Shown: piece after piece, positions 9,946 through 61,548 of the stretch
Layout: every line of letters begins with the position of its first letter
Numbering within the stretch: the first letter of the stretch is position 1
DNA from: Nakamurella multipartita DSM 44233
GTDB taxonomy: Bacteria > Actinomycetota > Actinomycetes > Mycobacteriales > Nakamurellaceae
Length of the DNA: 64,000 nt
Assembly: GCF_000024365.1 (NCBI RefSeq)
Contig: NC_013235.1
Span: 3,782,001 to 3,846,000 of the forward strand
Direction of reading: 5' to 3'
The notes under the pieces: model-generated
Told to the model about the DNA's origin: nothing
Database searches by the model: none
Seen by the model: only the letters and a program-made list of their open reading frames with translations
Position numbers and translations under genes: made by a program

Positions 9946-10092
9946 GGCAGGACTCCGATCGGAAGGGTGGATGGCGGCGGTGGGTGCCGACCTGTCCAGC
10001 CTGCCGTGCGAAAGATTGCCGTGCCACGGCAAAATCTCGCCAAGACATGGCGCCTTCACTGCCGAATATCGGCAATCAAAACGGTCAAGACG

Positions 10093-11289: not shown

Positions 11290-11325
11290 CCCCGCAGGCT
11301 AGGGCACGGGCCCGGTGGACCCGGT

Positions 11326-11796: not shown

Positions 11797-11962
11797 GGAG
11801 CACTCGCTTCCGTCCGGGATGACTGATCGGTCACCCGGACAGACGTACCGGCGACCCATCCGTGGGCCGGCCGCGGCGGCTCACAGCCGATGCACACGGA
11901 GGGTCCGCGCTCCGGCCGCCCGTGCCGGACGCGCACGACGCGCGCCGGCCGGACCGGCCGGC

Positions 11963-12904
11963 TCAGGCCCGGGCCGGCTCCGACGACCCGGTGACCGTCC
12001 GCCGGCACACCTGCGCCCACGGGGTCGGCGCCAGGGCGAGCACCTGCTGGGTGTGCGCGGAGTCCATGACGTACGGCCGGGTGAAGATGTAGGACAGCTG
12101 CGCCAGCTCGCGCATCAGCGGCGAGAACAGGCCGGCCGCGCGCAGCGCCGGCGCCGGCACCCCGTGCACCGGAACCGGCCCGTGGCCGGCCGCGGCCAGC
12201 ACCTCGGTCAGGGCCTGCCGCTGGCTGCGCGGCTCGTTGCTGGGCGCGTGCCACACCTGACCCCAGACGTCCGGCCGGTCGGCCACCGCGACCAGGGTCC
12301 GGGCCATGTCGGCCACGTCGGTCCAGGTGTGCGGCACGTCCGTCCGGCCGATCATCCAGGCCGCCCGGCCGGCCAGCGCGCCCGGCACCTGCCGCGGCAC
12401 GTGCCCGTTGGCCCCGACACCCTCGCCCACGTAGTCCGACCCGCGGACCTCCACGGCGTGCAGCCGGCCGGCCTCGTGCCGGGCCCTGGCCTGCGCCCAC
12501 ATGCCGGCCCGCAGCCGCCCCTTGTGATCGGTCGCCCGGTCCGGCTGCCCCTCGACCATCGGGCCGTCAACCGGTCCGTAGCCGTAGAGGCTGGACGCGG
12601 TGACCAGGGTCGCGCCGGTGCGCTCGGCCGCCTGCAACAGGCTCTCGGCCAGCGGCGGCCAGACCTGGTCCCAGGTCGTGTAGTCGGCCGGGTTGGCGCA
12701 GTTGAACAGCGCGCGGGCCCCGGCGGTCAGCCCGGTCAGCGCTTCGGCGTCGGACGCGTCGGCGGCCACCCGGCGCACCCCGTCGAGCTCCGGCCCACGG
12801 CCGGAACGGGTCACCACGACCACCTCGTCGCCCCGCTCGGCCAGCAGCTGGGCGGTGTGCCGGCCGACCGGGCCGGCCCCGACGATCACCATCGTTGCGG
12901 TCAT
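11963..12904 (-). CDS. NAD(P)-dependent epimerase/dehydratase-like oxidoreductase
   Basis: A 313-residue Rossmann-fold protein of the extended SDR type. The nucleotide-binding motif VGAGPVGRHTAQLL is at the N-terminus, and TASSLYGYGPVDG supplies the active-site serine and tyrosine, although the usual YxxxK lysine is not obvious. NAD-dependent epimerase and NmrA-like reductases share this layout. ATG at 12904 gives the correct Rossmann start. It is divergent from the TetR gene at 13035, with two identical palindromes in the 130-base gap, so it is probably the regulator's target. Confidence 0.82.
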   Translation of the reverse strand: MTATMVIVGAGPVGRHTAQLLAERGDEVVVVTRSGRGPELDGVRRVAADASDAEALTGLTAGARALFNCANPADYTTWDQVWPPLAESLLQAAERTGATLVTASSLYGYGPVDGPMVEGQPDRATDHKGRLRAGMWAQARARHEAGRLHAVEVRGSDYVGEGVGANGHVPRQVPGALAGRAAWMIGRTDVPHTWTDVADMARTLVAVADRPDVWGQVWHAPSNEPRSQRQALTEVLAAAGHGPVPVHGVPAPALRAAGLFSPLMRELAQLSYIFTRPYVMDSAHTQQVLALAPTPWAQVCRRTVTGSSEPARA

Positions 12905-43652: not shown

Positions 43653-43727
43653 GGGCGATTAGCTCAGCGGGAGAGCGCTTCGTTCACACCGAAGAGGTCA
43701 CTGGTTCGATCCCAGTATCGCCCACCA
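43653..43727 (+). tRNA. tRNA-Val (CAC), integration site
   Basis: Acceptor GGGCGAT pairs with ATCGCCC. The anticodon stem CTTCG/CGAAG encloses TTCACAC with anticodon CAC. Discriminator A is followed by an encoded CCA (43725–43727). The T-arm half (43696–43716) is repeated at 61528, so the gene's 3' end is the attachment site of the adjacent integrative element. The tRNA remains intact. Confidence 0.97.
43696..43716. other. attL core repeat (in tRNA-Val)
   Basis: The 21 bases, starting GGTCACTGGTTCGATCCCAG, form the T-arm half of tRNA-Val(CAC) and are repeated exactly at 61528–61548. Integration into the tRNA 3' part leaves a complete tRNA at this end. Confidence 0.88.
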
Positions 43728-43774
43728 GCATTACCGCAGGTCAGAGCAGGTATTCAGACACTTTCCAAGATCAA

Positions 43775-43795
43775 GTGTCGGATACGTGTCGGATC
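43775..43795. promoter_or_regulatory. Arm-type direct repeat near attL
   Basis: A 21-bp sequence made of two tandem copies of GTGTCGGAT separated by two bases, followed by C, lies 59 bases inside attL. The identical sequence in the same orientation is at 61396–61416 inside attR. Pairs of short direct repeats flanking the core are the expected arm-binding sites of a tyrosine integrase. Confidence 0.75.
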
Positions 43796-43843: not shown

Positions 43844-44290
43844 GTGACCATCACATCCACCGTCCCATCCATCACCCCGTGCCCGGTCAACTGGTGCCCG
43901 ACCGACGGCTCCCACCAGTGGGTGGCGGATCGCCCCGAGATCGGGATCGAGCGGTGGCACACCCTGAGCGTCCAGGACTTCACCAGCATTGACGGGGATG
44001 TCACTTCGGAGGTCGCCGTCGAATGCTTCGAGACGTCGGACGGTGTGCAGCAGACGACCGTGGAGTTGTTCAGCGGGCGGGCCCAGCTCCTCAACCGTGC
44101 CGAGGCCAACGAGCTGATGGATTCGATCCGTCGGGCGGCTGACCTGGCGTTCGACCCCCAGCCGGATGCCGACCTCGACGAGTTCGAGGCGGCCACGGCC
44201 GAGCTGGTGCAGCGGGCCGCGAACCCGGCGGACGTGAACAGGCTGGTCGCGGCGGCGATCCGGTTCCGCAACGCCTACCTGGGAGCGTGA
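43844..44290 (+). CDS. DUF6907-like protein
   Basis: A 148-residue protein whose N-terminus has CPVNWCPTDGSHQW, the Cys/His zinc-like motif of DUF6907-type actinobacterial proteins, followed by a small β domain and a C-terminal helical region. Function is unknown. GTG at 43844 has GGGGAG upstream. It begins a three-gene operon with overlapping GTGA and ATGA junctions, transcribed against the rest of the element, and is therefore a candidate cargo gene. Confidence 0.75.
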   Translation: MTITSTVPSITPCPVNWCPTDGSHQWVADRPEIGIERWHTLSVQDFTSIDGDVTSEVAVECFETSDGVQQTTVELFSGRAQLLNRAEANELMDSIRRAADLAFDPQPDADLDEFEAATAELVQRAANPADVNRLVAAAIRFRNAYLGA

Positions 44291-44634
44291 CGACGATGAC
44301 CACCACTATCCCGACGCCGATCGCACTGGACGCCCACTGCCCGGCCTGGTGTACCGAGCACACCCGGGTGGCACCGGACGAAGTCCGCCATCAGGCGCCG
44401 GCACTCTTGGACTACGCCCTGGCCGCCGAGATCCCGGGCCGGCGGCGTCGAGTCTTCGTGACGCCGGAGCAGTACGTTCGCGCGGACGGCTCCATCGAGC
44501 GCAACGTCTACCTCCAGGATGAGACCGAAGGCATCCTCAACAGTGCCACGGAGGTCGCGCAACTGGTCGACGCGCTAATGCGAGCCGCTCATCAGGCATT
44601 CGGAGACGGCGCGGTCGCCGACAAGGGCCGATGA
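44287..44634 (+). CDS. DUF6907-like protein, second copy
   Basis: A 115-residue paralogue of the preceding gene with the same CPAWCTEHT motif near residue 20 and a similar β-rich body (FVTPEQYVRADGSIERNVY). The GTG at 44287 overlaps the upstream stop; ATG at 44296 is an alternative start. Its own stop overlaps the next start (ATGA). Function is unknown; the pair may bind a metal or act in gene control. Confidence 0.72.
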   Translation: MTTMTTTIPTPIALDAHCPAWCTEHTRVAPDEVRHQAPALLDYALAAEIPGRRRRVFVTPEQYVRADGSIERNVYLQDETEGILNSATEVAQLVDALMRAAHQAFGDGAVADKGR

Positions 44635-44792
44635 AGCGACACCGTCGCGTGACCCGCCGTGCCCTGCGGCGGGAGGTGAACCGGGTGTTGGCCGAGCTGG
44701 ATCAGGCCAACCCCGGCACCCTGGATCGGCGGGACCGGGAACGCTGGACACCGGACGCGCTCGATCGGCTGTGGAGGGAGCTGGAGAGCTGA
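44631..44792 (+). CDS. Small basic helical protein
   Basis: A 53-residue frame, MKRHRRVTRRALRREVNRVL and so on, ending WRELES. Its ATG overlaps the stop of the preceding gene by ATGA, and a strong hairpin starts immediately after its stop, so it is very likely the last gene of the operon. It is highly charged with an arginine-rich N-terminus. Function is unknown. Confidence 0.65.
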   Translation: MKRHRRVTRRALRREVNRVLAELDQANPGTLDRRDRERWTPDALDRLWRELES

Positions 44793-44832
44793 GATCCTCG
44801 GCAGGTGATCAGTTGATCACTTGCCGAGGATC
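44793..44832. terminator. Hairpin terminator after the DUF6907 operon
   Basis: GATCCTCGGCAGGTGATCA is followed after a short loop by its near-perfect complement TGATCACTTGCCGAGGATC, a 19-bp stem with one G·U pair. It separates the plus-strand operon from the minus-strand genes and may work in both directions. Confidence 0.8.
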
Positions 44833-44876: not shown

Positions 44877-45095
44877 CTAGGTTGCCCCGCCAGAGCGAGG
44901 AGCCTTCGCGTCAGCGATGGCCTTGATTGAATCTGCCAGGGACACGTTGACCGTGAGCGGTTCCCCAGGCCTTTCCCCCACGAGAGCAGTGGTGTAGACC
45001 AAAGCCTTATCTGCGCCAAAGCCGGTCACTGCAACGATGTGATCGAGGTTGATGTAGAAATCGCCAATCTTCGCGAACCTCGGCACTTCACTCAT
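44877..45095 (-). CDS. Small hypothetical protein
   Basis: A 72-residue frame starting MSEVPRFAKIGDFYINLDHI, with a compact β-rich pattern and an alanine-rich helical end. It shows no signal or membrane segment. It is the last minus-strand gene of the element, after the tape measure gene and one other hypothetical, 36 bases from the latter. No family is recognised. Confidence 0.55.
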   Translation of the reverse strand: MSEVPRFAKIGDFYINLDHIVAVTGFGADKALVYTTALVGERPGEPLTVNVSLADSIKAIADAKAPRSGGAT

Positions 45096-45131: not shown

Positions 45132-45599
45132 TCAGGACTCCTCATCCTGGTCGAGGATCTCGATGATCCGATTTGTATCGACCGACGTTGTGCCAACGTC
45201 AGAGACAGCCCATGCTTTCCAGATACCGCCACGCTTGACCATGACCAGCAGTCGGTAGTTGCTCAAGGTCGCCTCGGCGTAGGCCCTGACGGCCGGCGCA
45301 GATATGGGCAACAACTTCACGTATGCGATTCGGTCCGGATAGTTCGACTCGATAACCTCCGAAGCGATTCCCCAGGAGTAGATCGCAGGCGCGACGTCAT
45401 CCAACTGCCACAGATCGGGTCTGTAGGTGAGGCGTAGCACCTCCTGGCGGTTACCGTCTGGGGAACACAGTTCGCGCTTCCAGATAAAGGCCGAGCCGAG
45501 TGGATCGTGGTCGGTGGGTCCGTCCGGGAATACCTGCCGCATCATGTCATCGATTGATGTTTCAACCACGGGCAACTGCGGATCCGGTTCTAGGGTCAC
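45132..45599 (-). CDS. Hypothetical protein
   Basis: A 155-residue soluble protein, mixed α/β, beginning MTLEPDPQLPVVETSIDDM and ending in an acidic tail IIEILDQDEES. I recognise no domain. It lies 91 bases downstream of the tape measure stop on the same strand. In tailed phages this place often holds a tail or accessory gene, but nothing in the sequence confirms that. Confidence 0.6.
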   Translation of the reverse strand: MTLEPDPQLPVVETSIDDMMRQVFPDGPTDHDPLGSAFIWKRELCSPDGNRQEVLRLTYRPDLWQLDDVAPAIYSWGIASEVIESNYPDRIAYVKLLPISAPAVRAYAEATLSNYRLLVMVKRGGIWKAWAVSDVGTTSVDTNRIIEILDQDEES

Positions 45600-48054
45600 A
45601 TAAGGATTGTCTCACCAGAATCGAAAGTGGACTATGGATTGATCCTTCTTCACCCGATCGTGTCCCCGCTGGTCGTTGAAATCGACACTGTCATCGACGC
45701 ATACCCGCTTCCTCAAGCTCGACGGTGGCGCGTTCGAGGCTGTTCTCAATCATCTGACCAACAGCAACCTGCAACGGATCCGACGAATCCAGGTTGATGA
45801 CCAGCGTCGGTGCCTGCCCGGAGTAGCCAGCCTGCACAGCCTTCGCGTGGGTGATGTACGCATCCGACTGCGCCGGCGTCAGTACAGCTTCCGGCTTGTT
45901 CAGCAGGTTCACACCCTGCCCGCCCGGCTGAAGCCATCCACCCTGGTCATACGCCACCCCACGCCACGCCTTGTCAAGGCTGCCGTACGTGGCCAGGCTG
46001 TACCGGATCGAGGCTATGATGTTGGACAGCGGATCGAAGATGTCCTTGTTCCAGGGCGCAATGGCGTACTGGCGGAACGTCGGGTCGATGACCTGCATCA
46101 GGCCCTTGGACCCGCCGTACAGCGGGAAGTTGCGGTCCCAGGTGTTCACGGCCCGCTCGTTGCCGCTGGACTCTGAGTCCATCTGCATCAGGCCCCGGTC
46201 GGCGTAGGACGCCGGCTGACCGGTGATGCCCAGCGCCCGGAGCATGGTGCTGCGCCAACGCTCGACCCCGCTGCCGCCGGTCACGGGGGTGATCCCGCCG
46301 ACCTTGGCCATGAACCCAGAGGTCAGCGCCGAGGCCAAGCTACCCAGGAGGCCCGTGGGCTTATCGTCGGCCGCGACCGGTGCCCCGCCGGAGAACTGCC
46401 CGGTGCCCGTGAGGAAGCTCAGGTGGACGTGGTCCCGGTGTTGCAGGGTGTCGTTGCTGCCGGACGGATGCTGATACGGGGCCCACGAGCCGCCCTGGTT
46501 GATCCGATCCCGCCAGATCACGTACTTGGTACCGAAGGCGTTCGGGTTGCCCACGAACCAGTCGGCGACGCTGGTGCCTTGGGCGATGCCGGCCGCGGAC
46601 AGGTAGTTCGCGATCATCACGTCCAGGGCCTTGCCGATGGGGTGATCGGATCCTGGCACCGAGCCGCCGTAGACCCCGCCGATGTCGGTGATGCCCCACT
46701 TCTGCGTGATGAACGCCTTGGCCGCCGCGGTGTTCGCCGCGAGGCTGGATCCGTCGGTGGCCGGACCCCACTGCCCGTTCCCGATGAACGCACTGCCGGC
46801 TGCCGCGTTGGCCGTGCTGTCGGCCACCCGTTCGGTCAGGCTCGGCAGGATCGCCTTGACCAGAGAGGCACCGAGCAGCATGCCCATGCTGCCGATCAGG
46901 CCGCCGTTGGCGAACCCGGGGAGCCGGCCGAAGAAGTCCGCCGGGTTGCCGCCGGCGTTGATGTGCCACAGCAGCGGCAGGTTCTGTGCGGTGGCCTTCT
47001 CGTTGACCATGAACTCGTTGCGGGATCCTCGGATCAGGACGTCGTCGGCGGTGCCGTGGGTGCCGACCGCGATCTGGCCCCCCGTACGTCCGTCGTACGG
47101 ACCGAACAGGCCACCGGTGGCCCGTCCCGGCACCAGGCTTAGACCGGCCGAGAGCGCAGCGTTCGCGGCGTTGCGGCTGAAGCTCAGGCTCGACAGGTAG
47201 TCGTTGATGTTCTTGTCCACGTCGACGCCGGTCAGGTCGATCAGGCCGCCCAGCCCGGGCACGACAGCCTCCGCTGCCTTGATCAGGGTTCGCGACAGCT
47301 CGGCGGCGATGTACGGATCAGATCCGGAGATCCCGTCGATGATGTACTTGATCAGTTGGCCGCCCCATTGCGTGGCCGTAGACCAGGCGCCCTGGATCGC
47401 CCCCCACAGGGCCGATGGCAGGTTCAGGAACCACTGCTGGACCTCGCCGAACTTGGCCGTGATCCCGTCCCAGATCCACTGGATGAAGTCCTTGCCTCGG
47501 TCGACCAACCACCCGGCGCCGGCCTGCACCTGTTCCCACAGCGAACCTGGCAGGGCCGTGAACCACGTCCAGACCTCCACGGCCTTGGTGGTGATGCCGT
47601 CCCAGATCCACTGGAGGAACTGCGCTCCCTTCTCCACCAGGAAGCTGCCGAAGGCGGAGATCTTCTCCCACGCCCACGGGGCGAGCTGACCAAGCCAGTC
47701 CAGGATCCTGCCGCCGATCCCGGTCACGACATCCCAGGCCGCCGACACGATGTTCTGGATCTGGTCCCAGATCCCCGAGAAGATGGTCTTGATCCCGTCC
47801 CAGGCCCGGGACCAGTCGCCGGTGAACACACCCGCCAGGAAGTCGATCACCCCGCCCAGGACCGTGAACAGGTTCCCGAAGGTGTTGGAGATGAACTCGC
47901 CCACCCGCTGGATCGTCGGGAGAAGGTTCTCCTCGAACCACGCCCAAGCCTGCTGACCGGCCGGCACCAACACGTCGGTGAAGAACGCCGCCACCTTCTG
48001 GATTGAATCCCCCCGGCGTGTCCGGAGACTCCAGAGCTTGGGAAGGTTGGAGTC

Positions 48055-48381
48055 ATGCCGGGAGATTCAACGAGGCGGTACCCGCTGGAGCTGAAGCAGC
48101 GGGCTGTACGGATGGTCGCGGAGATCGCGGGTGAGCACGAGTCCGAATGGGCGGCGATGAGCCGCGTGGCTGAGCTGCTCGGCGTCGGTACTGCCGAGAC
48201 GGTCCGTAAGTGGGTGCGGCAGGCCGAGGTCGACACCGGGACCCGGGTCGGCACCTCCTCGGAGGAGTCGGCCGAGCTGCGCCGGCTGCGTCGGGAGAAC
48301 GCAGAACTCAAGCGCGCCAACGCCATTCTGAAGGCAGCTTCGGCTTTCTTCGCGGCCGAGCTCGACCGGCCTTCCCACTGA
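48055..48381 (+). CDS. IS3 OrfA (transposase N-terminal part)
   Basis: A 108-residue HTH_Tnp_1 protein: YPLELKQRAVRMVAEIAGEH, recognition helix region ETVRKWVRQAE, and a leucine-zipper-like end (LRRLRRENAELKRANAILKA). In IS3 elements it binds the ends and is fused to OrfB by −1 frameshifting; the OrfB frame overlaps its 3' end. Confidence 0.92.
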   Translation: MPGDSTRRYPLELKQRAVRMVAEIAGEHESEWAAMSRVAELLGVGTAETVRKWVRQAEVDTGTRVGTSSEESAELRRLRRENAELKRANAILKAASAFFAAELDRPSH

Positions 48382-49334
48382 TCGCGGAGTTCATCCGCCG
48401 CCACGCAGGCCGCCGGGAGGCCGGCGGTCTGCGGTGGGGAGTCGAGCCGATCTGCAAGGTCCTGTCCGAGCACCTGGGTCTGCGGATCGCCCCGTCCACC
48501 TACTACGAGCACGCCGCCCGGCCCGCCCAGACGCGGCCGGCCGCGGTGCGGGATGCGGCCCTGCTCGAGCAGATCCGCCGGGTCCACACAGAGAACAACC
48601 ACGGCACCTATGGTGCCCGGAAGGTGTGGCTGCAGCTGAACCGGGAAGGCGTCTCGGTGGCCCGGTGCACCGTGGAACGGCTGATGCGCTCCGCCGGCCT
48701 GGTCGGTGTCCGCCGGGGCAAGATCAAGCGGACGACGGTCGCCGATCCGGGTGCGCAGCGGCCCGCTGACCTGGTGCAACGACGGTTCGGCGCGCTCGTG
48801 CCGGATCGTTTGTGGGTGGCCGACATCACCTACGTGAGTACCTGGTCGGGATGGGTGTACGTGGCGTTGGTGACCGATGCCTACGCCCGCCGCATCCTGG
48901 GCTGGCGGGTCGCGACCACGATGACCACACAGCTCGTCCTGGACGCGTTGGAGCAGGCCATCTGGACCCGTCAACGGGCCGACCGGACTGTGGAACACGT
49001 CGTGGCGCACAGCGACCGCGGGTCCCAGTACACATCCATCCGGTACTCCGAACGCCTCGCCGAGGTCGGCATCGCAGCATCGGTCGGCAGCGTCGGCGAC
49101 TCCTACGACAACGCCCTGGCCGAAACAATCAACGGCCTGTACAAGGCCGAAGTGATCCGTCACCGCGGCCCCTGGCGCAGCATCGACTCCGTCGAATTCG
49201 CCACCGCCGAATGGATCGACTGGTACAACCACCGACGCCTGCACGAGTACTGCGGCGACATCCCACCAGCCGAACTCGAGGACGCGTTCTACGCTCACCA
49301 CCGAGCCCAGCAAACCGCCGGACTCACCGTTTGA
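48378..49334 (+). CDS. IS3 OrfB (DDE transposase catalytic part)
   Basis: About 318 residues in the frame −1 to OrfA, beginning around LIAEFIRRHAG. The rve catalytic triad is in ADITYVSTW, AHSDRGSQYTS and DNALAETINGLYKAE. It has no own good start, so it is expected to be made as an OrfAB fusion. All catalytic residues are present. Confidence 0.92.
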   Translation: MIAEFIRRHAGRREAGGLRWGVEPICKVLSEHLGLRIAPSTYYEHAARPAQTRPAAVRDAALLEQIRRVHTENNHGTYGARKVWLQLNREGVSVARCTVERLMRSAGLVGVRRGKIKRTTVADPGAQRPADLVQRRFGALVPDRLWVADITYVSTWSGWVYVALVTDAYARRILGWRVATTMTTQLVLDALEQAIWTRQRADRTVEHVVAHSDRGSQYTSIRYSERLAEVGIAASVGSVGDSYDNALAETINGLYKAEVIRHRGPWRSIDSVEFATAEWIDWYNHRRLHEYCGDIPPAELEDAFYAHHRAQQTAGLTV

Positions 49335-50671
49335 GACAGCCTCCGGACACGCCGGGGGGATTCAGATCACCGGTCCGAGGTGCTCGCCCAGCCAGGCGAC
49401 AACCTCACTGATGACCGGCGTCAACTTCTCCGCGAGCCATGACGTGAACTCGCTGACCGCGGGGATCACTTGATCGGTGATGAACCCGACGAGGTTCGAT
49501 TTCAGGTTCCGCCACAGCAGCTCGATCCCGCTGGTGGTCGAACCCATTGCCTGGTCCATGGCGTCGGCGGCACCCGCGGCGTCGCCCATCCCGCCCGACA
49601 TGCCCTTGAGGCCCTTGAGGAACTCCGGGATGTCCTGCACGTTCATGTCTTCCAGCGGCGTCCCGAACAGGGCCAGCGCGGCCTGAGACTGCGCGGCCGG
49701 GTCCTGGATCGCCAAGATCCCGTCGGTGATCTGGTCGAACGCACCCTTCGCGTCGTCCCCACCGGCGAGGATCTTGTTCGCCATGGTCTGCGCGTCCAGG
49801 CCGATCGCCTGGAATGCACCGACCGACGATGCGCTCATGTCGGTGGATCGGATCGTGAATTCCTTGATCGCGTCGCCGGTCTTGTCAATTCCGAAAGTGC
49901 CCTTGTCGGCGCCCTTCACCAGGGCGTCGAAAGCCTGATCCCCGGAAAAACCTAAGGTGCGGAAGAACTGCGAGTACTCATCGGAGGCGTCGGAGATATC
50001 ACCCCGCAGCGCAGCCGGCACCTTCTGGGAGGACTTGGTCAACAGGTCGAACGCCTCGTCTGCACTCTTGACCAGACCGGAACCGAGCAGGGTGTTCACG
50101 TTCTGCGACACGGTCTCGACGTCGCCGCCGAACGCCTGCGAGAACGACAGTGCTTTCCCGGTCAGTCGCTCCAACTGGGAGTCGGGAAGCTTGAGGTTCT
50201 GGAACGCCGATTGCACCGAGGCGACCGAGTCGGTCAGCTCACTGATCGAGTCGCCGTACCCCTGCGCGTACAGATTGCCCGCCGACTTCCCCAGGTTCTT
50301 CGCCTGATCCGCCGTCAACCCAAGCGAGGCTTGAGCTTTCGCCTGCATCTTCCGCACGTCCAGGGCCTCGGTGTACGAGTCCACGAACGCCGCACCGACC
50401 GCAGCCGCAATGCCGGCAATGCCAGCCATCGCGGCGCCCTTGAATCCACCGAGGAAGGATCCGCCGGAATCCGAGCCGGACTGATCCGAGGCCTTGTTCA
50501 GCGGCTTGAACAGTTGCTTGTCCATCGCCGCGTCGAAGCCCTTGAGCGACGGAATGATGCTCAGAACGCCTACACCGACTTCGTACGCCATGAACTACCT
50601 CTTCAGGTCCAGTGCGGAGGGACCAATTTGAAGAAGGTGTAGTCGCCTATACCAATTCTAGTTCATCACTA

Positions 50672-50875
50672 CTATTTCAGGGAGCCGCTGTGTGGACAGC
50701 TACCCAATATCTGTTTGTGCACACGGCATTTCAGCCACGGCTCAAGAATTTGCATTCCCCACTGGTCGAAGAAGAATCCACATCCACTGCACCAACCCCG
50801 AGGGCGAGCAACCAGACCCCTGTTCGTGAGATCGGGTCCGCAACGTCCACAGCGTTCCTGAGCGCCAGTGGTCAC
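50672..50875 (-). CDS. Small zinc-ribbon protein after terminase
   Basis: A 67-residue protein with two CxxC pairs (CGRCG at 9–13 and CSGCG near 29–33), so a probable zinc ribbon, and further cysteines toward the end. GTG at 50875 overlaps the terminase stop as GTGA, which supports real, coupled translation. Its role is unknown. It fills the position where a portal gene would be expected, but it is far too small to be one. Confidence 0.65.
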   Translation of the reverse strand: MTTGAQERCGRCGPDLTNRGLVARPRGWCSGCGFFFDQWGMQILEPWLKCRVHKQILGSCPHSGSLK

Positions 50876-52311
50876 TGGACCCCACCTAGACCGCCGCGAC
50901 GGCCCGCGCTGACCCGGCGCGGCTCCCCGGGCTGCTTCCGCCGAGGCTTACGAACCTCACCATCCACACCCCAGACCGCCAGGGACGCAGCCAGCAACGC
51001 CGATGAGCCGGGTGCCTTCCGATCCCACCCGAAGCCTTGTCCACCGGCCATCGGCCGCTGAACCGCACCGAGAATGCCGCGGGTCAACTCGACCTGGCCA
51101 CGGTGCCGCGCCTTCCCATCGCTGACCGCGTCGAACAGGGCACCCGCCGCCGCGACAACCTCCCGGGTTCCGATCAGCGTCGGTCGCACACCGGCCAACG
51201 CCCAATCCAGTTCGGCACACGGATTCCGTGAATCCACCACCACTGCGCGCACCTGCGGGTTCAGTCTGGCTGCCACCCACTCGGGCAGCCATCCCAATCC
51301 GCTCGCGGTCTCGTACCACTCGATGTGCAGTCGATCATCTGCCCGGCGGCCGGCAATGCAGACCGTCACCGCATCCCGCGACGGCGGCGCATCCACACCT
51401 ATCGAGATGTCCCGCAGCGGAGCAGAACCCTCGTCCGTCAGCTCGTCCCACCGCCTCGGGTCGAACACCACAGGCCCCGATGAGCGCGGCAGGAACATCG
51501 ACAACCGCTCCGCTCGGAACTGATCCGGTGGGAGGATGGACCGGTCGTCCTGGATCGCCTGCAACGGCACCCGACCCGATGCCACCGCAGGGTTGACCCG
51601 CACCCACAGCTTCTGGTCGTCGATGTCATCACCCCACTGGGCGCACCACTCCCACCACGCCAACCGAGGATTCAGGCCATGATGCGCGGCGCGGCGCATC
51701 GTCGTGAACGCCTCGGCGTCATGCATCGGACCAGGCGCCGTCCCCACGTACAGGGACTGAGCACGGGGCCGCGCGAACACCGTCGGCGCCAACGCACCCA
51801 CCTCGGCCGCCGGCAGATCCTCGGCCTCGTCCACCACCAGCCGGTCGATCGACAACCCGCGGCCCGCCGATGCCGACCTTGTCGTGAATGACACCCGCGA
51901 GCCTGAGGCCAACTCCAGGAACTCTTGGCCCACTTGATGACTCCGACGACGCACCAGGCGGGTCAGATCGTCGTGCCCGTCGACCACCGCGACCAGGCGC
52001 CGGAACGCGTCGCTGGAGGTCTTGACCGCGTGCGCCGTGTGCAACACCGATTCCCGCAGCAGCAACAACCCCGCCAGTTCCAGCGCCAGCAGAATCTGAC
52101 CCTTGCCGTTCTGTCGGCCCACCACCAGGCCGGCCTGCGACGCTGACCAGCCACTGCCCGATTCCCGCAGCACTCCGCAGATCACGGCGGCCTGCCATTC
52201 GTCCAACCCGACCCCGTAGCGCCGAGCCAGCTCGACTGCCTCCCGGCCCGTCGTGTCATCACCATCAGGCACCCGGCTGAAGGTCGGGTCCGTAGCCAAG
52301 ACAGTCATCAC
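50872..52311 (-). CDS. Phage terminase large subunit
   Basis: A 479-residue terminase. The ATPase has Walker A-like VVGRQNGKGQ and Walker B RLVVDEAEDLP; a motif like VFARPRAQSLYVGTA follows. The nuclease half has acidic residues in ISIGVDAPPSRDAVTV and VRAVVVDSRNPCAEL. It would cut and pump DNA into a procapsid. It overlaps terS by four bases upstream (ATGA-type) and the zinc-ribbon gene downstream. Satellite elements can carry their own terminase to package DNA into helper capsids. Confidence 0.93.
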   Translation of the reverse strand: MMTVLATDPTFSRVPDGDDTTGREAVELARRYGVGLDEWQAAVICGVLRESGSGWSASQAGLVVGRQNGKGQILLALELAGLLLLRESVLHTAHAVKTSSDAFRRLVAVVDGHDDLTRLVRRRSHQVGQEFLELASGSRVSFTTRSASAGRGLSIDRLVVDEAEDLPAAEVGALAPTVFARPRAQSLYVGTAPGPMHDAEAFTTMRRAAHHGLNPRLAWWEWCAQWGDDIDDQKLWVRVNPAVASGRVPLQAIQDDRSILPPDQFRAERLSMFLPRSSGPVVFDPRRWDELTDEGSAPLRDISIGVDAPPSRDAVTVCIAGRRADDRLHIEWYETASGLGWLPEWVAARLNPQVRAVVVDSRNPCAELDWALAGVRPTLIGTREVVAAAGALFDAVSDGKARHRGQVELTRGILGAVQRPMAGGQGFGWDRKAPGSSALLAASLAVWGVDGEVRKPRRKQPGEPRRVSAGRRGGLGGVQ

Positions 52312-52511
52312 GACGCGCCACGCTTCCGACGCCGGGCCGTGATCTCGTCCAGCGGGGACCCTTCGGCCGCCGGAGTCAGCTCCGCGATCGCTGAGAGGGT
52401 CTGCCGGTACTCCCGGGAGACAGAGGCTAGGTCGCGCGGGGAGGTGTCCGGGTCGGCCAGTACGTCCTCTAGCCGGCCGCGCAGGACTTCGAGACGAGAT
52501 AGGTCAGACAC
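52308..52511 (-). CDS. Probable terminase small subunit or linker protein
   Basis: A 67-residue helical protein (start SDLSRLEVLRGRLEDVLAD, end EITARRRKRGAS) directly upstream of the terminase large subunit, with which it overlaps by four bases. Position and length fit short actinophage TerS-like proteins; sequence alone does not prove it. GTG at 52511 overlaps the end of the HNH frame. Confidence 0.6.
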   Translation of the reverse strand: MSDLSRLEVLRGRLEDVLADPDTSPRDLASVSREYRQTLSAIAELTPAAEGSPLDEITARRRKRGAS

Positions 52512-52788
52512 TGCGACCGCCCCCTGCCCCTCGGGGAATTGGGGCCCCAGATGTACGCCTATGCCGCCGAGCGGCTGCCCCTGGGTACCCCCAGGGGGTA
52601 GGTGCCCAGGGGTCAAGCGCTCCCGAGTTCGTACCCACAGTGCCATCGGGCAGGTTGCCCCGTTGCCGGTTGCAACTGTTATGGGCGGGCCGATAGTTCT
52701 CGATGGTGTCGGTCCCGCCCAGGCTGGTCGGGATGCTGTGATCGACCACTGACGTGTGTCTGACTTAATGACGCATTTCGGCGTTTGA

Positions 52789-53883
52789 TTAGCCAACATC
52801 GTCGGGCTCCGGGGCGGGTGGTTGGTGTTGGTCGTTCCGGTGCTCGCGGTGCCAGGTTAGCCGTCGTTGGCGGGCGGTTTCCAGGCCGGCCTGGCGGGCC
52901 TTGCGGATCTGGGCTCCTCGTCCTTGGTGTTCGTCGTTGGGACAGACGTAGCCGATGCCCTGGTGCAGCCGGACCCCGTTATAGTGCGCCCGCACCTGGT
53001 CCAGTTCGGCACGCAGCGTAGCCGGGTCGCGGATGGCCAGGAGGTGCGGGTACTCGGCCTTGAGGTGCCCGTTGAGGCTCTCGATCCACGCCTGGTCGGT
53101 CGGTGTGCCGGGCCGGCCGAAGTGCTGGGCGATCGCGCACAACGCCATGAACTCGCGGGTCGACCCGGAGGTCATCTGCGGGCCGTTGTCCGAGATCGCC
53201 AGCAGGATCGGCCGGTGCTCGTCGTCGACGCCCAGGTCGACGCGGCCGTCGTCGTGCCGGGCGTCGACCAGCTGTAGCAGCCCCTCGGCGTGCAGGGCGC
53301 GGGTGAAGCCGACCTGCACCTGCGTCGAGGTCTCCTCGGCCGACACGACCGTGCTCAGCCACTTGCGGGAGACCAGGTCCTCCACGATCAGCACCGCCAT
53401 CCCGGCCCTGGTGAAGTGCGTTGTGTCGTAGATCCACAGACTGTTCGGCTTGTACTCGGCCCATTCCGGGAACGGCCGCTTGGAGCTGCGGCCGGGCTTG
53501 GGCAGCGGCCGGAAGTGCTTGTCCGCCAGGAACAACACTCGCCGCACCGTTGATGGTGACACCCATACCCGGCCCAGGTAGGAGCCCCGGTGGGCCAGCT
53601 TGCGATGACTGCGGTCGGTCTCGCCCCACTCGTCGAACAAGGCCAGGACCGCGGCCACCTCATCGTCGAGCAGGCCGTGCATCGGCGACCCGCCCGGCGG
53701 CGAGTCGGCCAACCGTCCCTCGGCTCGGCGGTCCAACCAGCGGTACGCGCGTCGCTCGGGCAGCTCCAGTACGCCGCACGCGTCGCGTAGGGACCAGCCG
53801 GCGTCCAGCGCCTGGTCCAGCAGCGTGAGCAGCTGATCCTTGATGGCCGCCTCGACGCGGCGCGGGACCCGGCCATCTAGGCC
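52789..53883 (-). CDS. DDE transposase catalytic part (OrfB)
   Basis: About 364 residues from the frameshift point, starting near RRLGLDGRVPRRVEAAIKDQ. The rve triad is in LWIYDTTHF, LAISDNGPQMTS and AWIESLNGHLKAEYP. A helix-turn-helix (GVLELPERRAYRWLDRR) precedes it. It is expected to be produced as a fusion with OrfA by −1 frameshifting. Confidence 0.88.
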   Translation of the reverse strand, partial: GLDGRVPRRVEAAIKDQLLTLLDQALDAGWSLRDACGVLELPERRAYRWLDRRAEGRLADSPPGGSPMHGLLDDEVAAVLALFDEWGETDRSHRKLAHRGSYLGRVWVSPSTVRRVLFLADKHFRPLPKPGRSSKRPFPEWAEYKPNSLWIYDTTHFTRAGMAVLIVEDLVSRKWLSTVVSAEETSTQVQVGFTRALHAEGLLQLVDARHDDGRVDLGVDDEHRPILLAISDNGPQMTSGSTREFMALCAIAQHFGRPGTPTDQAWIESLNGHLKAEYPHLLAIRDPATLRAELDQVRAHYNGVRLHQGIGYVCPNDEHQGRGAQIRKARQAGLETARQRRLTWHREHRNDQHQPPAPEPDDVG

Positions 53884-54221
53884 CAGCCGCCTTTTCCCTC
53901 GACCAGGGTGAGCTTGACCGCCATCTGCTTGACCGCCTCGGACAGCCGGGCGATCTCGGCTTTCGCGGCCTCCATCTCGTAGTCCCGCTGCGCCGCCGCG
54001 ACGCCGGGCTTGGACGCAGCGAGCGCGGCCAACGCACCCTCCTTGGCGACGGTGCGTATCCGCATGATCGTTGATCGGTCGACCTGCTGCTGCTCGGCGG
54101 CCTCGGCGATCGTCACCTCCTGCCGGACCAGTTGCAGCCAGATCTCGTACTTCTCCGAGGGCGTCAGGAACCGCTTGGTGCGCCGGCCGGCACGGTCCTT
54201 GCCACGATCGGGTTGGGTCAT
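53877..54221 (-). CDS. Transposase OrfA (DNA-binding part)
   Basis: A 114-residue protein with a helix-turn-helix (FLTPSEKYEIWLQLVRQEVT, EAAEQQQVDRSTIMRIRTVA) and a C-terminal coiled coil ending VEGKGGWA. It overlaps OrfB, and the shared GGAAAAGG sequence is a plausible −1 slippage site. Confidence 0.85.
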   Translation of the reverse strand: MTQPDRGKDRAGRRTKRFLTPSEKYEIWLQLVRQEVTIAEAAEQQQVDRSTIMRIRTVAKEGALAALAASKPGVAAAQRDYEMEAAKAEIARLSEAVKQMAVKLTLVEGKGGWA

Positions 54222-54454: not shown

Positions 54455-55186
54455 TCAGCCAATCGGGCCGGAGTTGTAGGTGAAGCTGTACGGGTTGGCT
54501 GTTGGCTCTGTCGGTTGCGCGGGCTGGGGTTCGGTGGCCTCAGCGGCACGCTCAAGCTCGTGTAGTGAGGCGCCGAGCAGTTCGGCGGGGCGCAGAGCGG
54601 CGAGCTGCATCTCCAAGTCGAACGATTCGGTGTCGGCCCGGTTGGCGTTCCACAGGCGTTCCACCGCACTGTCGAGCTGGGGGCGGGTAGCCAGAAACTG
54701 GTGGAGGGGGGCGGGTTCCTGGATGTCCAAGGCGCGGGCGGCGATGGCTCGGGCAAGCACTTCGTCTCCGGTTCGGTCTGCGCGGCGCAGTAGGTCGTTC
54801 AGCTCGCCAGCATTGTTGATCTCGGCCACCCGGTCGGTGGCGTCGCGCATGGAGATGGCCAGGCTGGCGGGGTCACCCTTGAGCCCGTAGACGCCCAGGA
54901 CACTGCTGGCGTCGCTACGATCCTGCTGGGCGCAGGTGTCCGCAAGACGCTGGAGTTCACGCTCAACGCGATCCCGCCGACCGAGGTAGGAGCTGGCGAG
55001 TTGGCGGCGGCGTCCGATGTCGCTCAGGGTGTCGTTGCCTTCGATCGCCTTGTAGGCGCGTGCGGCATCCTCGTCTTCCTTGGCCAGCAGCGCCCGGACA
55101 TCAGACCGCTTGCCCGCAGCGAGCAGGGTCTTGATCGCGTCCAGCGTCGGGTTGTCCTTCTGTCGTGCCACTTCGCTCTCCTTCAC
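54455..55186 (-). CDS. Hypothetical helical phage protein
   Basis: A 243-residue mostly helical, charged protein (GRRRQLASSYLGRRDRVERE is a likely coiled coil) with a Pro/Thr/Gln-rich tail of about 35 residues ending FTYNSGPIG. No family is recognised. Its start overlaps the stop of the upstream HTH gene, and the HNH start follows its stop by six bases, so it belongs to the long operon. Confidence 0.65.
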   Translation of the reverse strand: MKESEVARQKDNPTLDAIKTLLAAGKRSDVRALLAKEDEDAARAYKAIEGNDTLSDIGRRRQLASSYLGRRDRVERELQRLADTCAQQDRSDASSVLGVYGLKGDPASLAISMRDATDRVAEINNAGELNDLLRRADRTGDEVLARAIAARALDIQEPAPLHQFLATRPQLDSAVERLWNANRADTESFDLEMQLAALRPAELLGASLHELERAAEATEPQPAQPTEPTANPYSFTYNSGPIG

Positions 55187-55575
55187 GCGGCCCGGTTGGC
55201 CCGGGCCCGCTCGACATCGTTGCGGTTGATGCGGTACCGACCATCGACTTGTGTTGCTTCCAATCGACCTTCGGCGATCGCCTTGCGGACTGCGCGATCA
55301 CTGATGCCGAGAATGCTTGCGGCGGTTGCGGTGCTGACCGTCTCACTTGACTGTTGCATCGGTTCCGCTTGTGGTGCAACGCTAGTTCCGCTCCCGGACT
55401 CGGCCCAGCGCAATCCGGCGTAGCTGATCGCCTGGAGGATCTGATCCAACTGAGGGTCCGCCCCCCGAACCTTGGGCCGGATCGAGTCGAGGCAGCTCCG
55501 CTTGAGCCAGTACGCGTACCGAGCCGGGATGATGACCTGATCGCCGTGGATGAATTCTGTGAATTGACGGATCAT
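55183..55575 (-). CDS. Protein with excisionase-type helix-turn-helix
   Basis: A 130-residue protein. The C-terminal 50 residues (TVSTATAASILGISDRAVRK, then AIAEGRLEATQVDGRYRI) form a MerR/excisionase-type winged helix-turn-helix. The N-terminal 75 residues are unrecognised, and a flexible linker (SGSGTSVAPQAEPMQQ) lies between. It may regulate the element. It is coupled by overlaps with both neighbours. Confidence 0.72.
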   Translation of the reverse strand: MIRQFTEFIHGDQVIIPARYAYWLKRSCLDSIRPKVRGADPQLDQILQAISYAGLRWAESGSGTSVAPQAEPMQQSSETVSTATAASILGISDRAVRKAIAEGRLEATQVDGRYRINRNDVERARANRAA

Positions 55576-56041: not shown

Positions 56042-56253
56042 GACATCTCCAGGTAGGTGCTGGCGACGATCTCCACGTCGCTGAGGTGGTGGATCCCGGC
56101 CCGGCGGGCGTCGATCAGGGCATCGAGGTGGACATGAAGGAGGAGGCCGTGGTGGTGGCCTTGGCACTGACAGGTGCAGCGCTTGGCGGTGGTCGCGGCG
56201 AGCAGGCACCGAGGGCCGCACGCTGAGGCGCGGATCAGTTCGGCGGGGGTCAT
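56038..56253 (-). CDS. Small Cys/His-rich protein
   Basis: A 71-residue protein containing CGPRCLLAATTAKRCTCQCQ followed by GHHHG, a dense metal-binding pattern, then a helical end. ATG at 56253 overlaps the stop of the RepA-like ATPase gene. Position in the replication operon suggests a DNA-related role, but there is no direct evidence. Confidence 0.6.
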   Translation of the reverse strand: MTPAELIRASACGPRCLLAATTAKRCTCQCQGHHHGLLLHVHLDALIDARRAGIHHLSDVEIVASTYLEMS

Positions 56254-57464
56254 GACGCGGTCCGCTGTGCCGAGATCCGGTCTGCGATGCAGATGCCGCA
56301 CTTGCCGTTGGCGGAGAGCGGGCCGTGACCGCAGGCCTTCAGTACCCCGGTTACGGGTGTTACGGGTGTTACGCCGAGGCTGTGACCTGCGGATACCGGC
56401 GGCGGCGCCGTAACAGTGGGCGTAACACCTACGTCAGCGGGTGTTACGCCTAGCCTAGGGCCCTGACCTGCGTCGTTGTCCCCCGCCGTAACAGTCGTAA
56501 CACCCGTAACTGGGGTGTAGAGGCCCGTGCTCGGCTTCAAGATGCGACCGGACTTCTCCAGCCGCTGGAGGTAGGGCCGGACCTTGTCCTGGTCGATCGC
56601 CAGGTGGTCGGCCACCGCAGCAGCCCGGACGCCATCCGGGTGCTGGGCGATGAAGTCGATGATCTCCGTGGAGCGATCTCCGAGGCCGATCGTGATCTCG
56701 GCTCGTCTGGCGGCGGCCTGCGCTTCAGCCAGACCATTGCCGTCGAGATCCCACCGCCCGGCATCAGGACGCCAGATCATGGCGTACTTGGTCTCTTCTA
56801 CATCGCGGCCGGTGATGTCCAGCTCGCCGTGAACCTCACCGCGGGTTCGGCTCAGGACGATGGTGCAGTCGGCCGCACCCGCGATGCCGTTGGTTCCGGA
56901 GACCTGCTCAAGGAAGTCGGCGGAGGCCATCTTCCGGACGTGCGTGACCACCAGGACTGCTACGCCGTGCTTGTCCGCGACCATCTTCAACTGGTTCATG
57001 ACCGCGTAGTCCTCGGCGTACTGGTTGCCGTTCGCGGAGCTGATTCCACGGATCTTCGCGAGCACGTCAACCACGACCAGGCGAGCTGCTGGATGATCGC
57101 GGAGCCACCGATCGAGCTGATCCGCACCTCCGTCCTGGAGGCCCGGCCATTCGGTTGCGATGTGCAGGTTCTCGGGCGCCGGATGCTCACCCAGCACCTT
57201 CCGCAACCGGCCCTGGAGGCGACGGGCCGTGTCCTCCAACGCCAGGTACAGAACATCCCCCTGCTGGACGTCGATGCCGCCGAGGGCGACTCCGAGGTCC
57301 GACGCGACATCCACCGCGAGGTTCAGGGCCAACCACGACTTGCCGACCTTGGGCGGGCCGGCGAGCAGGGTGACGCCCTCGGCAATGACCCCGGAGACCG
57401 CCCACTTCGGGATCGGCAGAACGGTCGCGAGCAATTCGGCCGCGTTCCAATAGTTCTTGGTCAT
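56250..57464 (-). CDS. RepA/DnaB-like RecA-fold ATPase (replication)
   Basis: A 404-residue AAA_25/RepA-type ATPase. Walker A is AGPPKVGKSWLAL (about 35–48), Walker B LVVVDVLAKIRG, and the later VLVVTHVRKM and ADCTIVLSRTRGEVHG match the hexameric helicase/RepA group. A winged-helix region follows (about 270–310), then a Val/Thr/Pro-rich tail encoded by many GTTACG repeats, and a C-terminal CGHGPLSANGKCGIC zinc pair. It is likely the replication helicase of the element. Overlaps couple it to the DnaB-N-like gene. Confidence 0.82.
   Translation of the reverse strand: MTKNYWNAAELLATVLPIPKWAVSGVIAEGVTLLAGPPKVGKSWLALNLAVDVASDLGVALGGIDVQQGDVLYLALEDTARRLQGRLRKVLGEHPAPENLHIATEWPGLQDGGADQLDRWLRDHPAARLVVVDVLAKIRGISSANGNQYAEDYAVMNQLKMVADKHGVAVLVVTHVRKMASADFLEQVSGTNGIAGAADCTIVLSRTRGEVHGELDITGRDVEETKYAMIWRPDAGRWDLDGNGLAEAQAAARRAEITIGLGDRSTEIIDFIAQHPDGVRAAAVADHLAIDQDKVRPYLQRLEKSGRILKPSTGLYTPVTGVTTVTAGDNDAGQGPRLGVTPADVGVTPTVTAPPPVSAGHSLGVTPVTPVTGVLKACGHGPLSANGKCGICIADRISAQRTAS
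56350..56510. repeat. Nine GTTACG/CGTAAC hexamers inside the RepA-like gene
   Basis: GTTACG occurs at 56350, 56359, 56368 and 56443, and its complement CGTAAC at 56409, 56421, 56487, 56496 and 56505. GGCGTAACACC (56419–56429) and GGTGTTACGCC (56440–56450) form an 11-bp inverted repeat. Most are 9 bases apart within clusters, as iterons may be. The repeats also encode repeated VT residues, so protein constraint could explain them. Confidence 0.55.
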
Positions 57465-58541: not shown

Positions 58542-59423
58542 TCAGGCCGCTTCTGCGGCCTTGTAGATCATCTCAAACTCGACCGGGGTGAGCTTGCCGA
58601 GGGCCCGCTGGCGGCGTCGTCGGTTGTACTTGGTTTCGATCCAGGTGACGATCGCGAGGCGGAGGTCGTCGCGGGTGTCCCAACGGCGGGTGTTCAGGAC
58701 GTTCTTCTGCAGCAGGGAAAAGAAGCTCTCCATGCTGGCGTTGTCGCCGGCGCCGTGGGAGCGGCCCATCGACCCCACCAGGTCGTTGTTCGCCAGCAGC
58801 CGCTGGGTCCGCTTGGCACGAAACTGACCGCCTCGGTCGGAGTGACAGACTGTCCCGGCCGGGCTGCGGAGCGCGATCGCGTTGCGCATCGCGGCCCGCG
58901 CCAGGGACGACTTCATCCGGGAGTCGATGGAGTAGCCCACGATCTTGTTCGACCACACGTCCTTGATCGCGCAGATGTAGAGCTTGCCTTCGCGGGTGGG
59001 GTGCTCGGAAATGTCCCACAGCCACACCTTGTTCGGGGCGTCGGCGAGGAACTCGTGACGTACGACGCCGTGCTCGTCGACGACCGCGAGGAGGTCGTCG
59101 TGTGGCGCGGGGCCGGTCGAGCCGGTCTTGGAGCGCTTCTTGTGGTGGCTGGCAGTGATGCCGGCGATGCGGCACAGGCGGTGCACCCGGTTCTCCCCGA
59201 CCTGGATGCCGTGCTCGTCTTCGAGTTCGTCGGTGAGGAACCTGTAGCCCAACGTCGCATCGTCGCCATGGAGGTCGTAGAGCTTGTCGATGAGGTGGGC
59301 GTCGTCGTAGTCCCGCTGGCATACGGGGTCGCTGAGCCACTTGTAGTACCCGGCCCGCGAAAGGCCGAGCACCCGCAACGTCACCGCGACCGGCACCCTG
59401 ATCGGGGCGCCGGTCGCAGCCAT
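58542..59423 (-). CDS. IS3-family transposase OrfB
   Basis: A 293-residue rve transposase. Catalytic residues lie in WLWDISEHP, VCHSDRGGQF and NASMESFFSLLQKN. The N-terminal HTH_21 region (HLIDKLYDLHGDDATLGYRF) is present. It is in a different frame from OrfA, 20 bases downstream, and is probably expressed by frameshifting. Confidence 0.93.
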   Translation of the reverse strand: MAATGAPIRVPVAVTLRVLGLSRAGYYKWLSDPVCQRDYDDAHLIDKLYDLHGDDATLGYRFLTDELEDEHGIQVGENRVHRLCRIAGITASHHKKRSKTGSTGPAPHDDLLAVVDEHGVVRHEFLADAPNKVWLWDISEHPTREGKLYICAIKDVWSNKIVGYSIDSRMKSSLARAAMRNAIALRSPAGTVCHSDRGGQFRAKRTQRLLANNDLVGSMGRSHGAGDNASMESFFSLLQKNVLNTRRWDTRDDLRLAIVTWIETKYNRRRRQRALGKLTPVEFEMIYKAAEAA

Positions 59424-59443
59424 CTCTCGGACGAGCGGGAAGA

Positions 59444-59740
59444 CTATTTTCCCGGCAGGTTCGCCTGCGACAGGTAGGCCGCTGCCCTACGCAGGACCTC
59501 GTTCTCCTGCTCGAGGAGGCGGTTGCGCTTCTTCAACTCGCGAAGCTCAGCACGGTCGACGTCGGTGAGACCGGGACGGCGACCGTCCTTGATGTCGGCC
59601 TGCTTCATCCAGTTCGCGAGCGAGCCTTCGGAGATGCCGAAGTCCTTCGCGATCTGCGTCAGCGTCGCCTGGCCCTTGCGGGCCACGGCCACGACGTCGT
59701 CGCGGAACTCCTTGGGATAGGGCTTAGCCACGAAAGACAT
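59444..59740 (-). CDS. IS3-family transposase OrfA
   Basis: A 98-residue HTH_Tnp_1 protein: PYPKEFRDDVVAVARKGQ, the recognition helix region ISEGSLANWMKQADIKDG, and a leucine-zipper end (RELKKRNRLLEQENEVLRRA). It pairs with the OrfB at 58542–59423. Confidence 0.93.
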   Translation of the reverse strand: MSFVAKPYPKEFRDDVVAVARKGQATLTQIAKDFGISEGSLANWMKQADIKDGRRPGLTDVDRAELRELKKRNRLLEQENEVLRRAAAYLSQANLPGK

Positions 59741-59762: not shown

Positions 59763-60278
59763 TCAGAGGTCAGGTGTCAACTGAACTCGGGGCAGACCCA
59801 CGCAGTCCATCTGCATCTCTTGATCGGTCAGTAACTCCTGCTGGACGTTCATGACGACCGGACGTTGGTCAAGGTCACCTACCCTCTGGAGGGCGAGATA
59901 GAACATCGGTACTTCTTGGCGATGACGCCGGTCACTGGCCCAGATCTGTGCCAGAACCCGATCAGACACGCTGGATTGATGTCCAATGCAACCGCACAGA
60001 ACACGGCCTATCTTGACCTGCGGGTCGCCCTGGTTCGCCTCCGTTTGCGTCCGGATCGACAGAAGGCCGTTAATTGACAGGCCCGGTACAAGCCGGGGAT
60101 CACCTGTCGACGTCTCAAGATCATGTTCATATGGACGCGAAGCTTCGGCGGCTGCCCGCTCGGCATCTAGCTGCCGCTGTACCGCCTCTGCCCACCGCTG
60201 CGGGAACTCATCCACCGGGACGCCACCACGGCCGAGCGTGATCGGCTGCACTGTGCGGTCTGCCTTGCGTGTCATCAA
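59763..60278 (-). pseudogene. Hypothetical element protein, 3' end replaced by IS3 sequence
   Basis: The 171-codon frame begins MMTRKADRTVQPITLGRGGV, and its start overlaps the integrase stop?side neighbour by four bases: its ATG lies at 60278 and the integrase stop begins at 60275. The last ten or so codons lie inside the IS terminal repeat, so the native C-terminus is missing. It contains an Arg/Ala-rich helix and no recognised domain. Its downstream remainder was not found on the far side of the IS. Confidence 0.65.
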
Positions 60279-61381
60279 TTCACCTCTACGAGTTGGCTTA
60301 GCCTGCGGGCGATCTCAGCATCCCGGCCCTGCGCGGCATGTTGGTATCTGAGGGCCGCACCGGGTGTTGAATGTCCGAGTCGACCCATGAGTTCGGCCAG
60401 GCTGGCGCCGGTCGCTGCGGCGAGAACTGCGCCAGTGTGCCGCAGGTCGTGCCAGCGCAGGTCCGGGCGTCCGGCCTTCTTCCGCGCGGGGTAGAACACC
60501 CGGTACAGGCTTGATGGGGCAAGGTGAGAAACACCATCGGCGGCGGGGAATAGGAGTCCGTCGCGACCGTTCACGTTGGCCTTGAGGTAGTCGCGGACCG
60601 CGGGCAGCAGATGCGGCGGGATGTTGACGTCCCTGTGTCCAGCAGCAGACTTCGGGGTGCCCACGATCACCTCGCCGTCGGTGCGGACGACACCGCGGCG
60701 CACGTGGATCACGCCGTTCTTCGCGTCTATGTCGGATCGCCGAAGCTCCGTGAGTTCGCCGAATCGGAGCCCGCACCAAGCAGCCAACAGGGTCATCAAC
60801 TGGTACTTCGCGTCCGGCATCGCACCGACGAGGACACCCAACTCCGCCAGCGATGCGGGTTTGATCTTGTGGACGCGCTTGGCGTTGCCGGCGCCCCGGA
60901 TGTGCGCCGGGTTGGCCGGGATGATTCCGTCGTGGACAGCGTCCGTGAGGATCGCCCGCAGCAGGCTGTAGGCGTGCGCTCGCAGGGTAGGAGTCGAGTC
61001 ACCGAGTCGGGTGTGCCAAGCCCGGACCTGATCGGGGGTAATCGTCTTGAGTGGTGAGGACTCGAATCCGGGCAGGATCAACTTGTCCAGCAGCATGGCG
61101 TAATGGGATCGGGTCCGCGGCTTGATCGGTCGGGCGGTGAGCCAGTCAGTGGCGTAGTCGCCAAAGGTCCGGTGCTCGATCGTCTTGGTCCGGTGCGCGG
61201 GCGGCGCCCAGGTCCCGGCGGCGATCAACCGGCGTTCATCGGTGAGCCATGCCTCGGCGTCTTCCCGGGTCTCGAAGGTGGATGGGGCGTTGTGTAGCTG
61301 AGTATCCGGGCCGGTGTACCGGGCGCGATACCGCTTCGAGGGGAGCCGAAGGATCTGCCCGAAGCCCCGTTTCTTGGCCAC
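60275..61381 (-). CDS. int: Tyrosine integrase of the tRNA-Val element
   Basis: A 368-residue phage-type integrase. An N-terminal arm-binding domain (about 10–60) is followed by a SAM-like core-binding domain (TFGDYATDWLTARPIKPRT…) and the catalytic domain with Arg in AAWCGLRFGELTEL, HDLRHTGAVLAAATG (HxxR), and LGHSTPGAALRYQHAA (His and Tyr). ATG at 61381 lies 15 bases from the arm-type repeat at 61396–61416, so integrase binding there may repress its own promoter. It is adjacent to attR. Confidence 0.95.
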   Translation of the reverse strand: MAKKRGFGQILRLPSKRYRARYTGPDTQLHNAPSTFETREDAEAWLTDERRLIAAGTWAPPAHRTKTIEHRTFGDYATDWLTARPIKPRTRSHYAMLLDKLILPGFESSPLKTITPDQVRAWHTRLGDSTPTLRAHAYSLLRAILTDAVHDGIIPANPAHIRGAGNAKRVHKIKPASLAELGVLVGAMPDAKYQLMTLLAAWCGLRFGELTELRRSDIDAKNGVIHVRRGVVRTDGEVIVGTPKSAAGHRDVNIPPHLLPAVRDYLKANVNGRDGLLFPAADGVSHLAPSSLYRVFYPARKKAGRPDLRWHDLRHTGAVLAAATGASLAELMGRLGHSTPGAALRYQHAAQGRDAEIARRLSQLVEVN

Positions 61382-61395: not shown

Positions 61396-61416
61396 GTGTC
61401 GGATACGTGTCGGATC
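61396..61416. promoter_or_regulatory. Arm-type direct repeat near attR, upstream of int
   Basis: Identical to the 21-bp repeat at 43775–43795, with two GTGTCGGAT units. It lies 111 bases inside the attR core and immediately upstream of the integrase start, where it could serve both in recombination and in autoregulation. Confidence 0.75.
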
Positions 61417-61527: not shown

Positions 61528-61548
61528 GGTCACTGGTTCGATCCCAGT
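61528..61548. other. attR core repeat
   Basis: An exact copy of the 21-base T-arm half of tRNA-Val(CAC), at the end opposite the tRNA. The flanking bases differ on both sides from the tRNA, which fixes the repeat length. Confidence 0.88.

Follow-up and report, generated by a model that had tools for sequence, protein, structure and literature searches.

What does a short operon do when it sits between a host tRNA gene and the body of an integrated element, and runs away from the integrase? The case examined here lies in a 64,000-nucleotide stretch (the window) of the Nakamurella multipartita DSM 44233 genome, a single contig of 6,060,298 bp. Within the window, att repeats bound a 17.8-kb element, and three small genes are found just inside its left end. 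The features on which the argument draws are as follows.

43653 to 43727, plus strand: host tRNA-Val(CAC), located by ARAGORN; its 3′ part is attL
43696 to 43716, plus strand: attL core GGTCACTGGTTCGATCCCAGT, a 21-bp exact repeat with 61528 to 61548
43775 to 43795, plus strand: left copy of the arm-type site GTGTCGGATACGTGTCGGATC, 48 bp past the tRNA, with an exact repeat at 61396 to 61416
43844 to 44290, plus strand: gene 1, 148 aa, CPVNWC...H...H motif, no family match over a curated cutoff
44287 to 44634, plus strand: gene 2, 115 aa, DUF6907, CPAWC...H motif
44631 to 44792, plus strand: gene 3, 53 aa, N terminus rich in arginine
44793 to 44832, plus strand: hairpin closing the operon, 18-bp stem, between convergent ORFs
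45691 to 47994, minus strand: tape measure protein, C-terminal part with an SLT domain (PHROGs, Pfam)
48055 to 49334, plus strand: IS3-type insertion inside the tape measure gene, transposase read from ORF translations
49362 to 50591, minus strand: tape measure protein, N-terminal part (PhageMin_Tail, PHROGs)
50872 to 52311, minus strand: terminase large subunit (phrog_9, E 3.5e-45)
52308 to 52799, minus strand: terminase small subunit (phrog_1459, E 6e-6)
52789 to 54221, minus strand: IS with an rve transposase (Pfam, ORFs)
55183 to 55575, minus strand: HTH_17/excisionase-like protein (profile match)
56250 to 57464, minus strand: AAA_25 ATPase, replication type, with a relative in element G571 (39% over 206 aa)
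58542 to 59740, minus strand: IS3-family insertion (profile match)
60275 to 61381, minus strand: tyrosine integrase (Phage_integrase; phrog_1, E 4.5e-66)
61396 to 61416, plus strand: right copy of the arm-type site, an exact repeat of 43775 to 43795
61528 to 61548, plus strand: attR core, an exact repeat of the attL core

A sequence-only reading of this DNA had described three overlapping plus-strand genes close to attL that end in a strong hairpin, and all of this was confirmed. Both junctions are 4-bp overlaps, and the operon starts 116 bp beyond tRNA-Val(CAC), inside the element, with GGGGAG upstream of gene 1. The hairpin (−39.2 kcal/mol, z −5.5) occurs once in the genome; it lacks a U-tract and is thus not a canonical intrinsic terminator. 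Gene 2 encodes 115 residues from its GTG start or 112 from the ATG at 44296, and GC3 is 0.91, 0.82, and 0.85 for genes 1, 2, and 3, respectively. The operon points in the same direction as the tRNA gene, away from the integrase/phage block. It had been said to oppose every other gene of the element, which is true of the phage-type genes, on the minus strand, but not of the transposase genes of the IS3-type insertion. We found no intrinsic terminator between tRNA-Val and gene 1. The same interval holds an inverted repeat, GACACTT-AAGTGTC, at 43757 to 43779, overlapping the left arm site, which might influence read-through or the binding of integrase.

Both larger proteins had been assigned to the DUF6907 type and taken for paralogues sharing a C-P-x-W-C motif. 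Gene 2 belongs to the family, scoring 28 bits against a Pfam gathering cutoff of 26 for PF21848. Gene 1, in contrast, matches neither PF21848 in Pfam nor a custom DUF6907 HMM of 35 sequences; hhalign pairs it with the family at a probability of 21.6%, over the motif only, and this motif, C-P-V-N-W-C, is one residue longer than that of gene 2. The paralogy itself fared better: the local alignment score of the two proteins is 54, against 28.5 ± 5.0 for shuffled sequences, and a score of 54 was reached by 3 of 2,000 shuffles and by none of 295 proteins of similar size. Since this similarity exceeds chance, "paralogue" is a reasonable term, while membership of DUF6907 is not established for gene 1, which looks from its sequence like a diverged paralogue of gene 2. 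An assignment of gene 1 to VG15 was rejected (19.8 bits, below the cutoff of 26), as were, on inspection, three weak matches to gene 2 within the order (L086, L087, and L088) as DUF6907 genes. No relatives of gene 3 were found in Pfam and sequence searches, and the searches made of viral contigs, phage and plasmid records, and GTDB contigs turned up no close relative of any of the three genes.

The family alignment has an invariant P, W, C, and later H; the first Cys of the motif is replaced by Glu in many members. The predicted DUF6907 model (pLDDT 91, pTM 0.75) combines beta strands with a long helix at the C terminus. The two DUF6907-type proteins of the operon are probably small metal-binding (C-C-H-H) proteins with a beta-sheet and a C-terminal helix. 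In the literature searched, we found no described function for DUF6907 and no paper that names the family.

The surrounding element is phage-like and damaged. Pfam and PHROGs revealed no head genes in it, and no capsid or portal gene was found between terminase and tape measure genes, indicating a decayed phage-like element; its three ISs are a further mark of decay. Two minus-strand ORFs, 44877 to 45095 (72 aa) and 45132 to 45599 (155 aa), separate the operon from the tape measure gene; they lie in or beside the kilobase of lowest GC content (0.58) and have no match in Pfam, PHROGs, NCBIfam, or PADLOC.

The sequence-only reading had proposed surveying the corresponding position of related elements. 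We gathered relatives of the integrase from the order and examined their flanks for tRNA att sites. Eleven relatives (41 to 67% identity) have such a site, at tRNA-Val-GAC, Val-CAC, Arg, or His, and define elements of 7.6 to 18.3 kb with arm repeats at +47 to +59. The six of these elements that were compared with PHROGs or read from sequence encode HK97-type head proteins, a head protease, terminase, and/or tape measure proteins, which marks them as PICI/phiRv2-like. Counting the window element, 9 of 12 have first genes inside attL that share the direction of the tRNA and oppose the integrase block, beginning 88 to 294 bp past the tRNA; the other three have no tRNA-sense gene at this slot. Among 149 element proteins, the six with the best DUF6907-HMM scores all lie at the slot (hypergeometric P = 3e-6; P = 2e-5 with the window element excluded). 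Slot proteins of the other elements score a weak 9 to 14 bits, and the claim for the slot therefore rests on rank and position. Two elements, G607 and L177, repeat the three-gene arrangement with −4/−4 coupling seen in the window. Thus, the suggestion that the operon occupies a cargo slot of an integrative element was supported, both by this recurrence in other genera and by the absence of its genes from congeneric genomes (see below).

Two of the related loci merit separate mention. In the G016 region (L129), a near-identical second DUF6907-like gene lies immediately outside attR, which would fit a tandem relic element or successive integrations at tRNA-Val. In the G571 element (L138), the tRNA-proximal gene encodes 299 aa, of which the N-terminal part is weakly DUF6907-like and is followed, as judged by eye, by an HTH-like segment; this could be a domain fusion, possibly hinting at a regulatory role.

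A search of 16 further congeneric genomes returned no relative of gene 1 or gene 2 at E ≤ 0.001. Sampling across the phylum recovered DUF6907 from 5 of 296 genomes, as opposed to 60 of 199 genomes of one genus, which we take to be Streptomyces (mostly 7 to 11 Mb), and tandem copies are frequent. The neighbors of DUF6907 include GntR-UTRA regulators, DUF2637-like proteins (a label given from sequence), DUF6257, FtsK, RepSA, SSB, resolvase, integrase, and excisionase, i.e., the gene set of the actinomycete integrative and conjugative elements (AICEs) of the pSAM2 type. Of 40 DUF6907 loci, 21 have mobile-element markers within ∼10 kb, against none of 20 control stretches taken from the genomes of these loci (Fisher P = 2e-5). 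The HMMs for the markers had been built from the very loci tested, a bias that favors the former figure. DUF6907 was not found in the phage or plasmid records searched but is present in 24 IMG/VR contigs. The finding named beforehand as one that would speak against cargo, the same genes as housekeeping loci away from mobile elements, was not observed: DUF6907 is patchy, is linked to mobile-element genes, and lacks the behavior of a housekeeping gene, with the reservation that 19 of 40 loci have no marker within ∼10 kb.

Taken together, these results make it fairly probable that the three genes are an accessory operon at the attL slot of a decayed, PICI/phiRv2-like, phage-like element integrated at tRNA-Val, and that they are expressed while the element is integrated. 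The position of the operon, its orientation, its 4-bp coupling, and its recurrence at the slot can be read directly from the DNA. Expression in the integrated state would depend either on a promoter within the 116 bp ahead of gene 1 or on transcription that continues from the tRNA-Val promoter; no intrinsic terminator was found in between. Excision would then switch the operon or part it from its source of expression. The two DUF6907-type proteins may serve the element as accessory factors. Because DUF6907 is found in both AICEs and phage-like elements, its function should be one that both kinds need: control of the element, or dealings with the host or competing elements, and presumably neither virion assembly nor conjugation as such. 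As a general rule for DUF6907 genes, read-through from a tRNA was rejected: at two loci (L055 and L059), DUF6907 lies beside tRNA-Lys with no element marker and points toward the tRNA.

What the accessory proteins might do is a matter of competing proposals. The one that survives best, which we regard as possible but somewhat doubtful, is that they are element-control proteins, i.e., accessory factors of transcription, replication, or transfer, possibly binding nucleic acid. It is suggested by the AICE linkage and the HTH partners of DUF6907: in Streptomyces, DUF6907 is often the first gene of operons that lead into DUF2637-like, DUF6257, and FtsK/TraB genes and lies near GntR-UTRA regulators; at L053, an HTH protein adjoins it; and the apparent fusion in G571 would join the two. 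Fold comparisons gave an ambiguous signal. A search of the DUF6907 model against the PDB and viral models returned nothing significant; VIA-align detected weak similarity to PUR-repeat/YdbC-type single-stranded DNA-binding folds (best Z, 4.3, for a PUR repeat), but this is below the level that parts relatives from common arrangements and was not reproduced with the AlphaFold model of gene 2 (P0002; pLDDT 80), so we treat it only as a lead. Furthermore, the phage-like elements keep the operon apart from their replication/excision block, which does not favor a control function.

A role in phage interference or superinfection exclusion, in which the three proteins would protect the host or the element from other phages, had been suggested for this operon at the outset, as had a benefit to the host; neither was supported, and we consider phage interference unlikely. 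The operon lies where integrative elements carry the cargo that they express in lysogeny, and prophages and candidate PICIs of Mycobacterium abscessus do carry PEST toxin cassettes, expressed in lysogens, beside their integration functions (PMC10654092), which keeps phage interference in contention; the slot proteins also differ strongly among elements, and the genes are patchy. On the other hand, PADLOC found no credible match for the three proteins (a single subcredible one, to gene 1, at 14 bits and E 0.0035), scattered single defense matches in DUF6907 neighborhoods form no consistent family, no enzymatic or toxin motif was seen in the operon proteins, and in Streptomyces, DUF6907 travels with AICE core genes for replication, transfer, and regulation. 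Least likely of the three is that the operon is a nonfunctional relic, as might be expected of an element that has lost its head genes, carries three ISs, and has one of them splitting its tape measure gene: none of the three ORFs is disrupted, their GC3 is high, both 4-bp overlaps have been kept, and the integrase ORF, att sites, and arm sites are likewise intact.

We thus return to the accessory operon at the attL slot and to what it offers. The positional rule finds DUF6907-like genes that are barely detectable by sequence search alone. Since DUF6907 occurs in two unrelated kinds of mobile elements and, in one, at a fixed tRNA-side slot, its role becomes testable and more members can be found even though their sequences are very dissimilar. 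Should this be a cargo slot driven by its host tRNA context, what it holds is a natural source of candidates for accessory or competition functions in actinobacteria. A bolder version, improbable in our estimation, would hold that actinobacterial phage-like elements share a tRNA-cotranscribed attL slot, dedicated to cargo and often occupied by a coupled three-gene operon, and that its fast-evolving, DUF6907-type metal-binding proteins form a class for element competition or superinfection control that is also present in AICEs.

Among known systems, the phiRv2-like elements and candidate mycobacterial PICIs (PMC10654092) are similarly small and have a tyrosine integrase at a tRNA gene, packaging or structural genes, and a replication-type ATPase. 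The window element likewise has a tyrosine integrase and an att site at a tRNA gene. That study recognizes such elements by an integrase together with a major capsid gene; the latter was not found among the ORFs scanned in the window element, although related elements do have a capsid. Instead, the window element has terminase and tape measure genes and is IS damaged. Capsid-forming PICIs depend on a helper phage for tails (PMC10690885, which also describes Streptomyces satellites), and some relatives of our integrase resemble these PICIs and satellites in encoding an HK97-type capsid, head protease, or terminase within 8 to 18 kb. In a difference from them, 4 of the 12 elements encode a tape measure protein of their own (the window element at 45691 to 50591, L138 at 7299 to 10160, L136 at 9375 to 12266, and L172 at 6524 to 9184), which deserves attention given the reliance of capsid-forming PICIs on helper tails; some of these genes lie next to one for a capsid or terminase, but a complete tail module is not evident. 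With respect to AICEs, neither the FtsK/TraB-type translocase nor the RepSA-type or primase replication gene that characterizes them was found among the ORFs scanned in the window element; what the two share is DUF6907, which in AICEs stands in operons with RepSA, FtsK, GntR, and excisionase. Within the DUF6907 family (PF21848) itself, gene 1 is unmatched and the products of genes 1 and 2 are orphans among the genomes sampled, whereas gene 2 passes the cutoff, the C-P-x-W-C motif and downstream H are held in common, and tandem paralogues are found in Streptomyces as well.
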